Shown: positions 13,634-20,584 of the stretch, one piece after another | Layout of the letters: each line of letters starts with the position of its first letter | How positions within the stretch are numbered: the stretch's first letter is position 1 | Virus record (IMG/VR): IMGVR_UViG_3300025138_000430 | Coordinates: 1-21,820 of that record | DNA from: a virus | DNA length: 21,820 nt | Strand: one strand, 5' to 3' | Position numbers and translations under genes: made by a program | The notes under the pieces: model-generated | Databases searched by the model: none | Told to the model about the DNA's origin: nothing | The model's input: only the letters and a program-made list of their open reading frames with translations

Positions 13634-16600
13634 ATGCCACAGTTTACAAGAAATTTTATAAAAGGAAGAATGAATAAAAGCGTTGATGAACGATTAGTTC
13701 CTCAAGGTGAATATATTGATGCTTTAAATTGTAGGCTTGGATCTACAGAAAACACTGAAATAGGTGCTGTAGAAAATTCTTTAGGAAATACAAAACTTAC
13801 AACTTTAACTTATGAAGGATTAGCATTAAGCTCTCAAGCAAAATGTATTGGAGCTTATGAAGATGGTGGTGAGGAAACTATGTACTGGTTTATAAATGAT
13901 CCAGCAAACGTAAATTCAAATACTGGTAAAGTTGATATGATAGTATCATATAATACTAAATTAGATTTGTTATTCTATCACGTTATATCTACTAGTCTTT
14001 TAAACTTTGATGATACTTATTTAGTTACAGGTATTAATCTTATAGATGGGTTATTGTTTTTTACAGATAATTTAAATCCTCCTAGAAAAATAAATATAAA
14101 CAGAACATATCCATATCCAATAAACGATGTTGATCAAGTTACTGAACAAGATATAGGTGTTATTGTAGCGCCACCTTTATTTGCGCCTACACTTACACCA
14201 ACTCAACAAGGCGGAGGAGAAAATTATATGACAGATATAATGATTTCTTTTGCATATAGATATAAGTATGAAGACAACGAGTATTCTGCTGTTTCTCCTT
14301 TTTCACCAATATCTTTTTCACCAGGACCATTTCAATTAGATTTTTCTACCTATGATAATATAGGTATGCAAAATGTATTTAATAGTGTTATTATGAAATT
14401 TAACACAGGTGGAAAAAATGTAAAAGGAATAGATTTATTATTTAAGTCAACAAATTTTGCAGCAATAAATGTTATTGAAAGATTTAATAAATTAGATCAA
14501 GGTTGGTTAGATAATGTTGAACAAACATTTCAATTTACAAATCAAAAAATATATACTGTTTTACCAGAAGCTCAGCTTTTAAGACTTTTTGATAATGTGC
14601 CTAAAATTGCACAAGCTCAAACACTTATGGGTAATAGACTTATGTATGGCAATTATGTTGATGGATATAATATTACAAATCAAAATGGTCAAGATGTATA
14701 TTTAGACTATAGTTTAGATTTAATATCAGAAAATTTAGATGCTGGGGAAACTCCTTCAGTAAATACTACTTTTAATTATAGTATAAACGGATCAGTTTCT
14801 GTTATTAACGGAACAGCTACATACGATACAACTGGGTTTGATTTAAAAGCTGGTTCTCAAATAGGTATTTCTTTTAATTTAGGTCATTCTCAATTTTCTG
14901 GAGCTGCTGAATATGTAGATGGAACAGAACCTTTAAATAAATATGAATCTACGTTTTTATTTAACGTTCAAGAAGACTTTTCTAATGCTTATGATTTAGT
15001 TAATTCTCCATCATTTATAGCTGCAATGTCTGAATTTGTTGCGCCTTCTAGTTCTACTTGTTTTTCTCAATTATGTTCTACAGGATGTGAAAGTGGTACA
15101 TCAGTTACAGATTTAATTAACTGTGGTGTTGTTGCTAAAACAAGTTGGTATAAAGTAGGTTTTGGAATATCTGGTACAAATCAAGGTATTGTAATTGGAT
15201 CTACTCCTGGTAGTAATAGTTTTTCTTTAACTGTACAAGCAATAAAATATGAAAAATATGATACAACTGTAACACCTAATGTGGGGTTAGGAATTTTTGC
15301 TTATGAATATTTTACTGTAATACAATCAGAATTCCTTTACAGTTTAGATTCTTCAAAAAGCAGTTTACATAGTGATAGAGATTATGAAGTTGGTATTGTA
15401 TATGAAGATAATTATGGAAGAGCAAGTACCGCTTTAGTAGATACAAATAATACAGTATATATTCCTTGTGACAATTCTATTACAAAAAACACAATTAAAG
15501 TTACACTAAATAGTTACCCTCCTTTTTGGGCTACTAAATATAAGTTTGTTTTAAAACCATCTAAAGACGAATACAGAACAGTTTACTCTAACATATTTTT
15601 TCAAGAAGAAGAAACTGGTAATGTGTGGTTTAAATTAGAAGGAGATAATAAATCTAAAGTTGTTTTAGATGAAAACTTAAAAGTTAAAACAGATACCAAT
15701 GGGCCAGTACTTAGATGTGTTGAAACAAAAGTTTTAGATTATGGAAGTCAAGTAGAAAACTGGCTTTGTCAAAGAGCAAGCGATGGTACTTTAATAGATG
15801 ACACTTGTTCTCAACCAACAGGAGTTTATATGCAACTTAGACCAAGTAATTTTTCAGCTGGTATTGCAGAAGATGCATTAATAAATACTGGGGAAGATGG
15901 ATGTAAAGGATCTTATTGTGCTGTAAAGTATGATGTATCTATTCCTAATCCAGATACAACTGGACCAACCAATTTATTTATACCATATACTATACCAGCA
16001 GGAAGTCTTGTTACAATAAAACTTGAAGCAAATAGATTTAAAAGAGGATCTAAATGTGGAGGTAGACGATATCTTTTTGATAAAACTTTTACAGCAAGTC
16101 AAGATTATGATAGTATGTATGCTTTTGTAGAAGGTGATAATATTGATTTAACAGCTGGAATTAGTTCAGGAAGTGACGACACTATAAATAACGTTAATCA
16201 ACCTAGTACATTATATCCTTATTTTACATCATTAGCAACTGGAGGTCAAACCTACATTACTTTTCAAACAGATGCTGCAAACGGTAAAATGTATCTTGTT
16301 TTTCAAAATGGAACTCCTAATTGTGGATCACCAAATAAAAGAAATTCTTATGGTAATGTACAAGTTATAGCTCAAAGAGCAACTACATTAATGGTTTTTG
16401 AAACTGAAGCAAAAGATGCTAATACTGAGCTTTATTATGAAAACGAGCAAGTTTTTAATATAACTGGAGGGTATCATCAATCAGGAACAGATGCTACTGA
16501 TCAAAATCAAACAGTAAGTTTACCAGCTGTAGTTAATTTAACTTTTTCTAATTGTTTTACTTTTGGAAATGGAGTAGAGTCTAATAGAGTATTAGATGCT

Positions 16601-18457
16601 TTAACTACACCTAGTTTTACTATAGGCGAAAAAGTAACTTCTGTTTCTCAAGAAGAATACAAAGAAGTTCATAGATTTAGTGATATAACATATAGTGGTA
16701 ATTTTAATAAAGAATCTAATGTAAATAAGTTAAACGAGTTTAATTTATCTTTAGGTAATTATAAGGCTTTAGAAAGTTCTTATGGTCCAATTAGAAAATT
16801 ACACTCAAGACAAACAGACATACTTACTTTACAAGAAGATAAAATATCTTATGTATTAGTAGAGAAAAATTTACTTTCTGATGCTGCAGCTGGTGGAGCT
16901 GTAACTTCAATACCTGAAGTTTTAGGTACTCAGTTAGCCAGAATAGAAGAGTATGGTATAAGTAATAATCCTGAAAGCTTTGCTTCTTATGGTTATGATG
17001 TATATTTTACTGATGCTAAAAGAAGTTCTGTTATAAATATTAGAGGTGGAGTAAATGCTAAGTCAGATAAACTACAAGTTATATCTTCATTAGGTATGCG
17101 TAGTTGGTTTAGAGATTTATTTACAGAAAGCTTTGATACTCAAAAATTAGGAGGATATGATCCTTATATGAATGAGTTTGTTTTAAGTAGTAATACAGAA
17201 AAAGTACCAGTCCCACCAACAAATAGAGATTGTGGTTATGAAGTTAGACAGTCTAACTCAAGTGAAGCTACATCTTTTAATATAGATTGTACATCACTTA
17301 TAGGTGATGTTGCTTGTGTTTATAATTTTGATTCAGGCTCTGCTGTTTTATTAGTTAATTACAATGGTGTTGCTGTTGTTAATCAAACAATAAGTGGAAC
17401 AGGAACTGTAACTTGGAATAAAGGACAATCTTTCCCAACTGCTGCTCAAGTAACTATTACACCTACAGCTGCAACATACTCATTATCATTAGGCTGTCCT
17501 CAAACACAAAACTTAACAGTAAAACGTATTGTTATAAATTCTGCTGGAGATGCTAGTTTAACTTCTAGTGTTAGATACAGATGGGCTGATGGAACAACTA
17601 CAAGTCCTTATCAAAGTGATAACATTATATTAGAAGAAGATGGTGTTTCTTTATTTGCTTCACAATTAGGACCGGCTTCATTTGGAACTATTCCAGTTAG
17701 TGGCGCAACTGTAACAATGCAAAATTTACAATCTGTTGGAGAAACTTTTGTTTTTGATCCTTTAGCAGATAAATTTAAATACTTAGTATCTAACACTAAT
17801 TACAACGAAGCGGATGTAAATACATTGATACCATTGTTAAATAATGCTACTCCAATTACAAATGTTAGTGGTAATACTTATCAATCAAGTTTCACTTATA
17901 CTAATGCATCAAATGATGATTATTTATATTTAGTTTGGGATTATAGAGTTGCAACAGCAATTGAGTTATGTTATGATGCTACAAGTTCTTCTAATTCTTG
18001 TTGCGACTGTGGTACAAATGCTCCAGTTTGTCCAGACAGAATTTTAGTTTTTCAAGTTTGTAATAGTAATTCAGCACGTGATGATAACTTTGATGTATAT
18101 TTAAACAACAATTATATAGGTGCTTTAGATTTAAATTCAAACACTCAAGCAGGATCTATATTTATAGCTTCTAGTAATGGAACTATTAATGTAACAAGTA
18201 GTGACTTTGTTTGTCCTTTAAACCTTATGGTTACATATCATTTTGATGCTAATTTTGTTGTAGGAGGAGCAAATACTTTAGAATTAAGAAACACACAATC
18301 TAATAATAATGGTAATTACGGTACAATAGGATTAAGAAATTATTTATTAACAGGAAGTAGTTTAACTAATCCTTGTGTTGTAGATAACTTAGTATATTCA
18401 GGAACAACAGGATCTAGTTTTTCATTAACATTTAACTACACTGAGTGTTGTCCATAA
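13634..18457 (+). CDS. Tail muzzle / stabilisation-type protein with Cys-rich C-terminus
   Basis: A 1607-aa protein, the largest in the window. The N-terminal motif GRMNKSVDERLVPQGEYID followed by ALNCRLG and GAVENSLGN is the signature of P22 gp10/T7 gp12-like stabilisation proteins and of the crAss-like tail muzzle. Their beta-propeller-like body closes the tail and contacts the ring proteins. Further blocks include FSDITYSGNFNKESNVNKLN and the segment SSYGPIRKLHSRQTDIL near 1050. Cys clusters lie near 475-490, 695-770 and 1440-1475, the last with CYDATSSSNSCCDCG. The final 130 residues form a separate beta-rich Cys domain ending ECCP. The YxATSSSNxCC motif recurs in the next gene, so the C-terminal end is probably an exposed, exchangeable module. 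Confidence 0.85.
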   Translation: MPQFTRNFIKGRMNKSVDERLVPQGEYIDALNCRLGSTENTEIGAVENSLGNTKLTTLTYEGLALSSQAKCIGAYEDGGEETMYWFINDPANVNSNTGKVDMIVSYNTKLDLLFYHVISTSLLNFDDTYLVTGINLIDGLLFFTDNLNPPRKININRTYPYPINDVDQVTEQDIGVIVAPPLFAPTLTPTQQGGGENYMTDIMISFAYRYKYEDNEYSAVSPFSPISFSPGPFQLDFSTYDNIGMQNVFNSVIMKFNTGGKNVKGIDLLFKSTNFAAINVIERFNKLDQGWLDNVEQTFQFTNQKIYTVLPEAQLLRLFDNVPKIAQAQTLMGNRLMYGNYVDGYNITNQNGQDVYLDYSLDLISENLDAGETPSVNTTFNYSINGSVSVINGTATYDTTGFDLKAGSQIGISFNLGHSQFSGAAEYVDGTEPLNKYESTFLFNVQEDFSNAYDLVNSPSFIAAMSEFVAPSSSTCFSQLCSTGCESGTSVTDLINCGVVAKTSWYKVGFGISGTNQGIVIGSTPGSNSFSLTVQAIKYEKYDTTVTPNVGLGIFAYEYFTVIQSEFLYSLDSSKSSLHSDRDYEVGIVYEDNYGRASTALVDTNNTVYIPCDNSITKNTIKVTLNSYPPFWATKYKFVLKPSKDEYRTVYSNIFFQEEETGNVWFKLEGDNKSKVVLDENLKVKTDTNGPVLRCVETKVLDYGSQVENWLCQRASDGTLIDDTCSQPTGVYMQLRPSNFSAGIAEDALINTGEDGCKGSYCAVKYDVSIPNPDTTGPTNLFIPYTIPAGSLVTIKLEANRFKRGSKCGGRRYLFDKTFTASQDYDSMYAFVEGDNIDLTAGISSGSDDTINNVNQPSTLYPYFTSLATGGQTYITFQTDAANGKMYLVFQNGTPNCGSPNKRNSYGNVQVIAQRATTLMVFETEAKDANTELYYENEQVFNITGGYHQSGTDATDQNQTVSLPAVVNLTFSNCFTFGNGVESNRVLDALTTPSFTIGEKVTSVSQEEYKEVHRFSDITYSGNFNKESNVNKLNEFNLSLGNYKALESSYGPIRKLHSRQTDILTLQEDKISYVLVEKNLLSDAAAGGAVTSIPEVLGTQLARIEEYGISNNPESFASYGYDVYFTDAKRSSVINIRGGVNAKSDKLQVISSLGMRSWFRDLFTESFDTQKLGGYDPYMNEFVLSSNTEKVPVPPTNRDCGYEVRQSNSSEATSFNIDCTSLIGDVACVYNFDSGSAVLLVNYNGVAVVNQTISGTGTVTWNKGQSFPTAAQVTITPTAATYSLSLGCPQTQNLTVKRIVINSAGDASLTSSVRYRWADGTTTSPYQSDNIILEEDGVSLFASQLGPASFGTIPVSGATVTMQNLQSVGETFVFDPLADKFKYLVSNTNYNEADVNTLIPLLNNATPITNVSGNTYQSSFTYTNASNDDYLYLVWDYRVATAIELCYDATSSSNSCCDCGTNAPVCPDRILVFQVCNSNSARDDNFDVYLNNNYIGALDLNSNTQAGSIFIASSNGTINVTSSDFVCPLNLMVTYHFDANFVVGGANTLELRNTQSNNNGNYGTIGLRNYLLTGSSLTNPCVVDNLVYSGTTGSSFSLTFNYTECCP

Positions 18458-18469
18458 ACAAAAAATAAT

Positions 18470-19393
18470 ATGAGTTTAGTAAATAAATATATTGATTCTG
18501 TAAGTTTTTTAACTGCTACTGCCGTTTATGACGATATTAATTTAACGACAAAAGCAACAGATGGTTATTATCAATTTGGAGGTCAATATAGAAGACAGGT
18601 GTCAGGATTATTATTAACAGCAGCTGTATGTAGTGATTGTTTTACTTTTGATTCTTTAGACTATAACGCAACAAGCTCAAGTAATTTATGTTGTTTAGTT
18701 CAAACACCAGCGCAATACTTTTATCCAACTGGATTAACATTTTTAAATACAACTAATATATATACTGATGTAAATTTAACTAACATTGCAGCGGATGGAT
18801 ATTACAGTGAACCAAATGGTTCTCAGTTTAGACAAATAACTGGTAGTGTTCTTGGTTCTTTACAGGCTTGTGCTACTTGTTATACAGCCCGTACTCTTGC
18901 ATTTAGCTTTGTGTCAGCAGTAGATGTGTGTTGTAATTTACCATCAAGTGGGGCTTTTTATGTTGATTACGGAACTACATTACTTACTACTAGTAATATA
19001 TATTCAGATACTTCAGGAACAATTGCACCTGATGGTTTTTATAAAGAAACATCTGGTAATACATACAGACAAATGTCATCTAGTGTTTTAGCAGCTCAAA
19101 ATCCTTGTTCTCCTTGCGGTAGTACAAACTCTTGGAGAGCTATTCAATGTGGTGGTGGTGCTGGAGTTTATTACTTAAACCAAACAAGTGGTTTCCAAGG
19201 TTCAGCTTCAATAGTACTGGCTTATGGATATACAGTTGGAGATGTTGTTTGGGTTAAACAAACATCAACTGGAGTTATTACTTGTGCTACAATACAAGCA
19301 ATATCATCTACACCTCCTAATTACTTTATAGATGAAGCAGCAAATAGTGGGAATGGTCCTTATAATGATTGTACTGTTTGTGTAACACCTTAA
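18470..19393 (+). CDS. Cys-rich repeat protein, possible surface or receptor-binding tail protein
   Basis: A 307-aa protein with three tandem repeats of about 80 residues. Each has an IYxD-like strand, a DGYY or DGFY turn, an R-Q motif (YRRQVSG, FRQITGS, YRQMSSS) and a closing C-x-x-C at 54/57, 134/137 and 213/216. CC pairs lie at 74-75 and 154-155, again 80 apart. Residues 217-307 form a different C-terminal domain (WRAIQCGGGAGVYYLNQ, then YNDCTVC). The paired Cys could form disulfides or bind metal. It follows the muzzle gene by 12 bases and shares its YxATSSSNxCC motif. It has no signal peptide and is not enzyme-like. Receptor binding is inferred from position and repeat architecture, not shown. 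Confidence 0.65.
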   Translation: MSLVNKYIDSVSFLTATAVYDDINLTTKATDGYYQFGGQYRRQVSGLLLTAAVCSDCFTFDSLDYNATSSSNLCCLVQTPAQYFYPTGLTFLNTTNIYTDVNLTNIAADGYYSEPNGSQFRQITGSVLGSLQACATCYTARTLAFSFVSAVDVCCNLPSSGAFYVDYGTTLLTTSNIYSDTSGTIAPDGFYKETSGNTYRQMSSSVLAAQNPCSPCGSTNSWRAIQCGGGAGVYYLNQTSGFQGSASIVLAYGYTVGDVVWVKQTSTGVITCATIQAISSTPPNYFIDEAANSGNGPYNDCTVCVTP

Positions 19394-19403
19394 ATATATA
19401 TAT

Positions 19404-20153
19404 ATGCCAAACTATACATTAACACACAGTCAAGACGTTCAGGGATGGCCTTCGTTTTATAGTTACTTTCCTGAATACATTATGGGTATGAATCAGTATT
19501 TATATACTTTTAAAAACGGAGATTTATATCGACATAATACTAATACTCTTAGGAATAATTATTACAATGTTCAGTATAACTCTACAATTACAAGTGTGTT
19601 AAACGATCAACCGCTTGAAAATAAAGTTTTTAAAACCATAGAATTAGAATCTGATTCTAGTTGGGATGCAACTTTTTTAACTGAGTTACAGTCTGGCAGT
19701 ATTAATGCTAGTTACTTTTCTTTAAAAGAAGGTTCTTATTTTAGTTTTATCAGATATAATCAAAATCAGGAAAATTTAAACTTAAGATCTACTCAAGGTA
19801 TAGGAACTTGTGCTAATGTAACCGGAAGTGTTGCTGCACCACCTATGGCTATTGAATTTAATTTTTCAGTTGATTCTATACTTAATATAGGTGCAACTGC
19901 ATATAAAATTAATTCTGGAGTTTTAGTGGAGTTAGGTCCAGTAACAGCAATATCTGAAAACAGAAGAATTGTTACAATATTAAATCCTATTGCTAATGCA
20001 GTTGGTGGTGATAGTATAGTATACTTGAAAGACCCAGTAGCTGAGTCTTACGGTATGTTGGGTTATTATTTAGAGTTTACTTTAACAAACACTAGCACCT
20101 CAGCAACTGAGTTGTTTGCTGTAAATAGTCAAGTCTTCAAAAGTTATCCATAG
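19404..20153 (+). CDS. Tail-associated structural protein
   Basis: A 249-aa, beta-rich protein. The opening TLTHSQDVQGWPSFYSYFPE, then IMGMNQYLYTFKNGDLYRHN, and the block STITSVLNDQPLENKVFKTI with SYFSLKEGSYFSFIRYN are familiar from tail proteins encoded just after the muzzle gene in crAss-like and marine Bacteroidota phages. I recall the family but not a characterised member. The C-terminal half (145-249) is a beta domain with a GIGTCANVTG linker. The start codon follows an A/T-only leader. The gene ends with TAG, and the next promoter starts 7 bases later, so this is the last gene of the neck/tail operon. Confidence 0.75.
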   Translation: MPNYTLTHSQDVQGWPSFYSYFPEYIMGMNQYLYTFKNGDLYRHNTNTLRNNYYNVQYNSTITSVLNDQPLENKVFKTIELESDSSWDATFLTELQSGSINASYFSLKEGSYFSFIRYNQNQENLNLRSTQGIGTCANVTGSVAAPPMAIEFNFSVDSILNIGATAYKINSGVLVELGPVTAISENRRIVTILNPIANAVGGDSIVYLKDPVAESYGMLGYYLEFTLTNTSTSATELFAVNSQVFKSYP

Positions 20154-20173: not shown

Positions 20174-20584
20174 ATGGGATTTACGATAAAAAAATTAAGT
20201 ATTACTGATTACGATGAAATTTTAGTAAATTGGTGGAACGATTGGAGATGGCAAGCTCCTCCTAAAGACTTTTTACCGGAAGATGGTAAAGGTGGATATA
20301 TTATTTACGATGAAGAAATTCCTGTTTGCGCAGGTTTTATTTATGTGACTAATTCCAAAGTAGGATGGTGTGATTGGATTATTTCTAATTTTAATTACAA
20401 GGATAAGGCAAAAAGAAAAGAGGCTTTAAAAAAGCTTATATTAACTTTAACCCAAACCTTAAAAATAAGTAAATGTAAGTATGCTTATGCTTTACTTAAG
20501 TCTGATTCTTTAATAAATATTTATAAAGAAGAAGGTTATTTAGAAGCAGGACAATACAATAAAGAAATGATAAAAAGATTATAA
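20174..20584 (+). CDS. GNAT-like acetyltransferase
   Basis: A 136-aa protein with a GNAT N-acetyltransferase topology. It has an N-terminal strand-helix (FTIKKLSITDYDEILVNWWN), a strand IPVCAGFIYVTNS, the strand VGWCDWIISNF that matches GNAT strand 4, and a helix KRKEALKKLILTLTQTL. It ends with the strand-turn YAYALLKSDSLINIYKEEG and the usual C-terminal Y/F strand. The acetyl-CoA loop (normally Q/RxxGxG/A) is degenerate here, reading NYKDKAKRKEA. Substrate is unknown. Phage GNATs in marine genomes often sit in the structural module, as here, where the gene lies between the tail operon and the cargo genes with its own leaderless promoter. It may modify a virion or host protein, or be catalytically impaired. 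Confidence 0.65.
   Translation: MGFTIKKLSITDYDEILVNWWNDWRWQAPPKDFLPEDGKGGYIIYDEEIPVCAGFIYVTNSKVGWCDWIISNFNYKDKAKRKEALKKLILTLTQTLKISKCKYAYALLKSDSLINIYKEEGYLEAGQYNKEMIKRL

Follow-up and report, generated by a model that had tools for sequence, protein, structure and literature searches.

In work on phi-crAss001, the muzzle of crAss-like phages is described as one chain with a presumed gating role when DNA and proteins are ejected (PMC10172136). The muzzle of that phage is gp44 (PDB 7qok, 7qol and 8ckb; PMC10172136), with a length of 1371 amino acids (aa). The DNA considered here, hereafter the window, is the whole of a 21,820-nucleotide stretch (positions 1 to 21,820 of IMG/VR virus record IMGVR_UViG_3300025138_000430) that forms a run of crAss-like phage structural genes, with all larger open reading frames (ORFs) on the plus strand. 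Its muzzle is homologous to gp44 at both ends but is encoded as two chains, P0001 and P0003, and differs further in an extension named muzX, in Cys junctions and in an extra gene, P0002, within the cut. We give a probability of about two in three to an overall reading of the locus as a split tail-tip gate bearing P0002 as an anchored, Cys-jointed and exchangeable adhesin, of which we infer the disulfides, the contacts and the binding.

Other described phages share parts of this layout. The muzzles of Flavobacterium elemo phage and Cellulophaga phage phi38:1 are homologous to that of the window over residues 1–1184 and over the muzzle C-terminal domain (MUZ_C), but each is one chain, and both muzX and the Cys-rich module of P0002 are absent. 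Cellulophaga phage phi19:3 (Baltivirus) is split at the same place, into gp120, which has muzX, and gp121, a MUZ_C protein annotated as a structural protein, although it lacks the intervening gene and the module. In phage MW202828 (Manatee Spring) the muzzle is also split, and the single ORF between its two genes starts with the module (E 2e-24); this ORF differs from P0002 in its length of 183 aa, its single module and its annotation as a putative glycosidase. Tail proteins that end in a variable binding domain are likewise reported for zeta crAss-like phages, in the form of C-type-lectin tail fibres, but these are varied by diversity-generating retroelements and P0002 by module exchange (PMC12386605). 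The BACON-domain tandem repeats of crAssphage are likewise domain repeats in a crAss-like protein, but the domain is another one and a tie to a split muzzle is not evident from the available text of that report (PMC6949934). In the openly accessible text covered on phage muzzle proteins, no split muzzle was described, and no recognisable match by title or abstract was obtained for split nozzles, Crassvirales tail tips or prolyl hydroxylases with phage tails.

P0003 matched the Pfam family PF25729, 'Crassvirus muzzle protein C-terminal domain', with an E-value of 1.4e-16 (61.2 bits against a cut-off of 27). The MUZ_C profile also matched the C-termini of the one-chain muzzles of phi38:1 (1079–1323) and elemo phage (1260–1492), as well as gp44 at 1200–1284, and a profile of fused muzzles spanned the junction unbroken in gp44 (1048–1284, 36.7 bits). 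At the other end, P0001 has relatives in named phages at 31–40%, and the N-terminal hidden Markov model of the clade matched gp44 at 27–160 (18.7 bits, i-Evalue 1.8e-08), with nothing significant in the rest of gp44. Judged from these homologies, P0003 is the muzzle C-terminal domain, and the muzzle is thus encoded as two chains. Because the fused-muzzle profile is continuous there and P0003 is MUZ_C, the cut is placed between the predicted strands ..NEFVLSSN and NYTLTHS... The gene boundary at which the initial annotation had located a shared Cys-rich module is accordingly identified by homology as the middle of a split muzzle, since the next-but-one gene encodes the muzzle C-terminal domain. 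No solved relatives were found by sequence for P0001 (up to E 0.1), for P0003 or the MUZ_C profile (each up to 10), or for P0002 (up to E 1).

Related loci were taken as the best-scoring ones of larger sets (best 80 of 120 and best 80 of at least 510), and 97 were kept after de-duplication by MUZ_C identity and layout. The gp44 muzzle is one polypeptide, whereas two genes were found in the window and in 94 of the 97 loci; the junction is continuous in the remaining three, elemo phage (L003), phi38:1 (L082) and Maribacter phage Panino (L081). The Panino muzzle (L081:4777-8690) is annotated as two pieces with about 110 bases between them, and this apparent break lies upstream, elsewhere than that of the window group. 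The number of ORFs of 75 aa or longer between the two muzzle genes ranges from none to five. The extension muzX follows residue 1184 in 93 of the 94 split loci, the exception being L105 with a broken muzzle ORF, and in none of the three continuous ones; its Cys 1200 and 1288, at the ends of its first half, were invariant in 48 of 48 aligned relatives. MUZ_C or the module gene appears interrupted in L023/L050, and the muzzle in L019.

The module, counted by translation of the whole gap between the muzzle genes, was present in 89 of the 94 split loci (73 with separate copies alone, eight with muzzle copies alone and eight with both) and in none of the three continuous-junction loci. Copy number per split locus ran from zero (five loci) through one (58), two (17) and three (11) to four, five and six (a single locus each); a constant repeat number in relatives, which the initial annotation had named as an outcome that would count against module copying, was thus not observed. 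Of the 77 loci with intervening ORFs, 76 have the module at the N-terminus of the first or the second such ORF and L105 has it in the fourth, and in L063, L191, L197 and L215 it forms a whole ORF of 55–58 aa in a gap of 153–182 bases. It precedes ends that differ, one protein (L031:7445-9322) ending in a Fib_succ_major domain (1.2e-38), and the P0002 family has the architecture of receptor-binding proteins, a conserved N-terminus with exchangeable C-terminal domains. Sixteen loci have a muzzle with the module fused to its C-terminus, eight of these having no separate copy, and in L031 and L053 the muzzle passes from the motif LCF/LRY..CC directly into a complete module. Seen from these fusions, the muzzle motif is the junction preceding a module, which connects the two places guessed by the initial annotation. 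On the MUZ_C tree, the muzzle-only state takes four changes (at least three forced) and any muzzle copy nine (at least five forced). P0002 itself had no Pfam match up to E 1, no PHROG match and no tblastn match in named phages up to 0.001; among bacterial and archaeal genomes, nine stretches fitted the single pattern used in a narrow search, and none encodes a relative.

Within the window, the motif YDATSSSNSCC starts at residue 1447 of P0001 (nucleotides 17972–18004) and YNATSSSNLCC at residue 65 of P0002 (18662–18694), where the initial annotation had placed them. This pair was the top of all P0001/P0002 11-mer pairs, with a score of 51 that was reached by 0 of 300 shuffles (best shuffle, 47), ruling out chance as the source of the match. 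The Cys spacings reported with it also hold, the CxxC pairs of P0002 starting at 54, 134, 213 and 301, with spacings of 80 and 79 among the first three, and the CC pairs lying at 74 and 154, 80 residues apart. Cys content is 4.6% in P0002, 3.3% in muzzle residues 1185–1607 and 1.3% in residues 1–1184. Relatives bear out the idea of one module that is found at the end of the muzzle as well as in a protein of its own, but in the window P0001 and P0002 have only the short 11-residue junction in common: a profile search found three copies of the 57-aa module in P0002 and none in the window's own muzzle, and the gapped local alignment of the whole proteins was not significant (score 56, reached by 67 of 300 shuffles).

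Swapping of the P0002 C-terminal domain between relatives, a movement that the initial annotation had suggested looking for, was seen in L024, L029, L030 and L048, where this domain has 17–26% identity against 74–85% in residues 1–80. Compared with L024, L029 and L030, muzzle residues 1–1184 are 91–95% identical, and P0002 declines from 84–85% (residues 1–80) to 24–26% (residues 220–307). Partial P0002 alignments from the N-terminus stop no more than three residues from the CxxC node at 57, 137 or 216 in 63 of 72 cases, most of them at the first node, a figure that partly restates the one-module makeup of many relatives. Locus L005 is a near twin of the window over the muzzle and MUZ_C (99–100% in most), and at 18760–19145 it has 51 consecutive L006-like informative sites and then 16, the two runs being separated by one W-like site and one further site. 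The run of 51 was reached by 0 of 2000 shuffles (longest shuffled run, 7), and a further, shorter L006-like run lies at 19376–19427. This stretch of L005 is a recombinant tract that spans modules 2 and 3. The ratio of nonsynonymous to synonymous substitution rates (dN/dS) against L006 and L009 was 0.11 for the muzzle, 0.16 and 0.25 for P0002, and 0.09 and 0.12 for P0003; against L048 and L024, in which P0002 is mosaic, it was 0.46 and 0.58 for P0002, 0.21 and 0.13 for the muzzle, and 0.18 and 0.12 for P0003, which ranged from 0.09 to 0.18 across the four relatives. P0001, P0002 and P0003 are all real genes, under purifying selection in colinear comparisons.

We propose the following model for this locus. 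The genes at 13634–20153 would encode one tail-tip assembly, in which the muzzle is a T7-nozzle-like gate at the end of the crAss-like tail, built as two chains. P0001 would supply the muzzle N-terminal part and the added muzX, and P0003 the C-terminal part; because the cut separates predicted strands that are continuous in fused muzzles, the gate would be complete only when the two chains pack against each other. P0002, whose gene lies in the break, would be the tip adhesin. The natural module–muzzle fusions suggest that its first module anchors at the muzzle C-terminal Cys junction, with the further modules and the variable C-terminal domain pointing outward and the variable parts binding the host. 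The four-Cys junctions would most likely hold two disulfides, formed once the virion is outside the cell. Owing to their similarity, the junctions are sites at which recombination exchanges modules and end domains, and such swapping may alter the surface while the gate stays intact.

The Cys junctions are probably disulfide-bonded joints rather than metal sites. Phages assemble in the reducing cytosol, CxxC is a frequent metal-binding motif, and exactly four Cys (CxxC plus CC) are found in 18 of 19 distinct inter-module linkers, all of which would suit zinc or iron–sulfur sites, with muzzle and adhesin otherwise as proposed. However, the second pair is CC and not CxxC, 17 of the 19 linkers have no His, and some single-module ORFs (L063, L197) end in a lone Cys and have no four-Cys site of their own. 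Furthermore, disulfide bonds are reported in the tail barrel, the fibre hubs and the portal-vertex protein of phi-crAss001 virions (PMC10172136), which argues against metal sites and does not support the initial annotation in calling Cys pairs unusual for virions of this kind. Metal-bound junctions are thus rather unlikely.

P0002 may alternatively be an assembly factor or internal tail protein that helps the two muzzle chains join, instead of a surface adhesin. The restriction of the module to split loci and its stand-alone form of 55–58 aa are more than an adhesin needs, but the ends of the family are strongly variable and swapped, one of them being Fib_succ_major, as in binding proteins; the module is also fused to the muzzle in 16 loci, and split loci without it exist. 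A role in assembly therefore seems improbable. Convergence on a low-complexity junction, rather than common descent, as the origin of the 11-residue match would suit the short motif and the non-significant whole-protein alignment inside the window, but is very unlikely, since a whole module (E 5e-20 or better, to the 2e-23 level) follows the same muzzle junction in 11 loci (L031, L053, L123, L125, L127, L128, L171, L183, L203, L208 and L213). Finally, although gaps of 0 to 11 bases, or an overlap, in a few loci would allow a frameshift, stop read-through, protein splicing or a sequence error at the stop, an unreal split is hardly credible and was rejected, given the two genes in 94 of 97 loci with whole genes in between, the own start of MUZ_C 2–15 residues ahead of its first strand in most loci, and its separately annotated gene in MW202828 and phi19:3.

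Several points weigh against the proposed gate and adhesin. The sample consists of best-scoring loci, and its de-duplication was imperfect, L024 and L025 both being kept. The module is missing from five split loci (L002, L179, L186, L207 and L168, the last a cut contig), and therefore the split does not require the module. In the MUZ_C tree the split Baltivirus L002 groups with the continuous-junction phages (96/93, long branches), so that this tree does not show the split to have arisen only once. Strict Cys pairing is weakened by one linker of the 19 with three Cys and by the muzzle-end stretch of 34 residues, which has a Cys number other than four in 32 of 74 distinct versions (four Cys in 42, five in nine, three in nine, two in eight, one in four, none in one and six in one); in the eight versions with two Cys these form a lone CC, after which a fused module begins. 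The muzzle fragment model is poor over its first 114 residues, and its propeller part has a predicted local distance difference test (pLDDT) score of about 30, so that the cut was positioned within the propeller by sequence alignment and not by the model.

The P0002 model has a mean pLDDT of 78, with 10-residue means of 83–96 over residues 1–150 and a weak C-terminal domain. It had no Foldseek match among solved folds at 0.001 and 11 among predicted viral proteins at 0.001, with uninformative names in all. In a second structure comparison, 14 of 17 rows were choline-binding, CROP or glucan-binding hairpin repeats, all on residues 5–54 and with Z of only 2.0–2.9; these low values offer a hint of a possible carbohydrate-binding hairpin in the module. 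In the muzzle fragment model, muzX was predicted with a pLDDT of about 90–96. Its first half (1195–1288) aligned with ColG 1nqj at Z 9.7 and a root-mean-square deviation of 2.4 over 89 residues, tied with SIDT1 (Z 10.1) and GOLD domains (9.2), and may resemble the PPC/collagen-binding and GOLD beta-sandwiches.

Hydroxylase-like genes lie in the same gap in 13 of the 94 split loci (L059, L061, L066, L068, L070, L073–L075, L077–L079, L132 and L201). Stretches of four or more Pro-(T,S,V,A,I) pairs were found in neighbouring tail proteins at 13 of these 13 loci versus 0 of the 81 others, an association that is clade-linked (two changes on the tree); the proline-rich tail proteins there are PTPTP-like and contain Cys. 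PF13640 was detected in all four two-domain enzymes tested (L059, L075, L132 and L201), and nine aligned enzymes keep the HxD..H set in both halves (92/94/161 and 305/307/368). The HxDFF first domain is missing in three of the 13 (L061, L066 and L070), and Pfam gave no match for the two of these three that were tested (L061 and L066). Neighbouring genes encode, by Pfam, a GlcNAc-type glycosyltransferase (L059, L072), a radical SAM/SPASM protein (L059), O-FucT and carbamoyltransferase (L061) and a DXD glycosyltransferase (L068). With the enzyme as the starting point, a scan (80 of 203 relatives, 47 loci after de-duplication) found MUZ_C in 37, the module in 34 and a proline run in 41, several of the six without a run being short contigs. 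In L236, L238 and L239, the same enzyme type lies by a proline-rich protein of about 1100 aa, with no MUZ_C, muzzle or module in the stretch.

From this gene neighbourhood, the cut may tentatively be regarded as a dedicated diversification site, which in the window's group would hold the Cys-jointed adhesin modules and at which sister phages would have a hydroxyproline-glycoprotein pathway modifying their own tail tip. The two-headed 2-oxoglutarate-dependent dioxygenases, whose first half is of the prolyl 4-hydroxylase type (PF13640), would hydroxylate the tail proline runs, and the glycosyltransferases, O-fucosyltransferase-like protein and carbamoyltransferase encoded between the muzzle genes would decorate the PTPTPTPT-type tail proteins. 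Such a modification would be similar to that of plant extensins, which are hydroxylated and glycosylated. A survey calls viral use of prolyl 4-hydroxylase cryptic and cites 4-hydroxyproline in chlorella virus proteins (PMC9301287); hydroxyproline in a virus would therefore not be a first.

Table 1. Features of the three-gene muzzle unit in the window
Feature	Coordinates	Strand	Basis or remark
Muzzle N-terminal chain P0001, 1607 aa	13634..18457	+	phrog_14478 1.8e-253
Muzzle part homologous to fused muzzles, residues 1-1184, end ..GGYDPYMNEFVLS	13634..17185	+	
muzX, residues 1193-1439: predicted beta-sandwich, then second beta domain	17210..17950	+	alignment, model
Muzzle Cys junction LCYDATSSSNSCCDC, Cys 1446, 1456, 1457, 1459	17969..18010	+	
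Variable muzzle tail, residues 1460-1607	18011..18454	+	recurs in L099, not L021
Cys-repeat protein P0002, 307 aa, proposed tip adhesin	18470..19393	+	
P0002 module 1, residues 2-57, proposed anchor	18473..18640	+	E 2e-26
Cys junction 1 (C54, C57, C74, C75), holds YNATSSSNLCC	18629..18694	+	
P0002 module 2, residues 82-137	18713..18880	+	E 1e-20
Cys junction 2 (C134, C137, C154, C155)	18869..18934	+	
P0002 module 3, residues 159-216, CxxC 213/216 at end	18944..19117	+	E 2e-17
Recombinant tract: L005 has L006 version over modules 2 and 3	18760..19145	+	informative sites
P0002 C-terminal domain, residues 217-307	19118..19390	+	unrelated sequence in L024, L029, L030, L048
Muzzle C-terminal chain P0003, 249 aa, starts at strand.YTLTHS	19404..20153	+	PF25729, phrog_38031, phrog_18548
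P0003 residues 50-119, match to Pfam crAss_MUZ_C	19551..19760	+	

Outside this unit, the ORF at 382–813 has an acidic EEEV repeat near its C-terminus and matches phrog_7802, to which no function is assigned. The small ORF at 20174–20584, after the MUZ_C gene, had no Pfam family up to E 1, and the ORF at the matching place in MW202828 is annotated as a subunit of an N-terminal acetyltransferase complex.

Annotation tools miss the nature of P0003 because the muzzle is split into two genes with an exchangeable protein in the cut, and the same layout explains why they miss P0002, which has no Pfam or PHROG match. The P0002 gene is a likely host-range gene in phages that offer no other clue. If the proposed tail-tip modification is true, phage prolyl hydroxylases would gain a substrate, and the loci that combine hydroxylase-like genes with proline-rich tail proteins make the question of viral prolyl 4-hydroxylase use testable. 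The large group of relatives with a two-chain muzzle and an exchangeable protein in the cut would represent a natural experiment on the construction of the gate.

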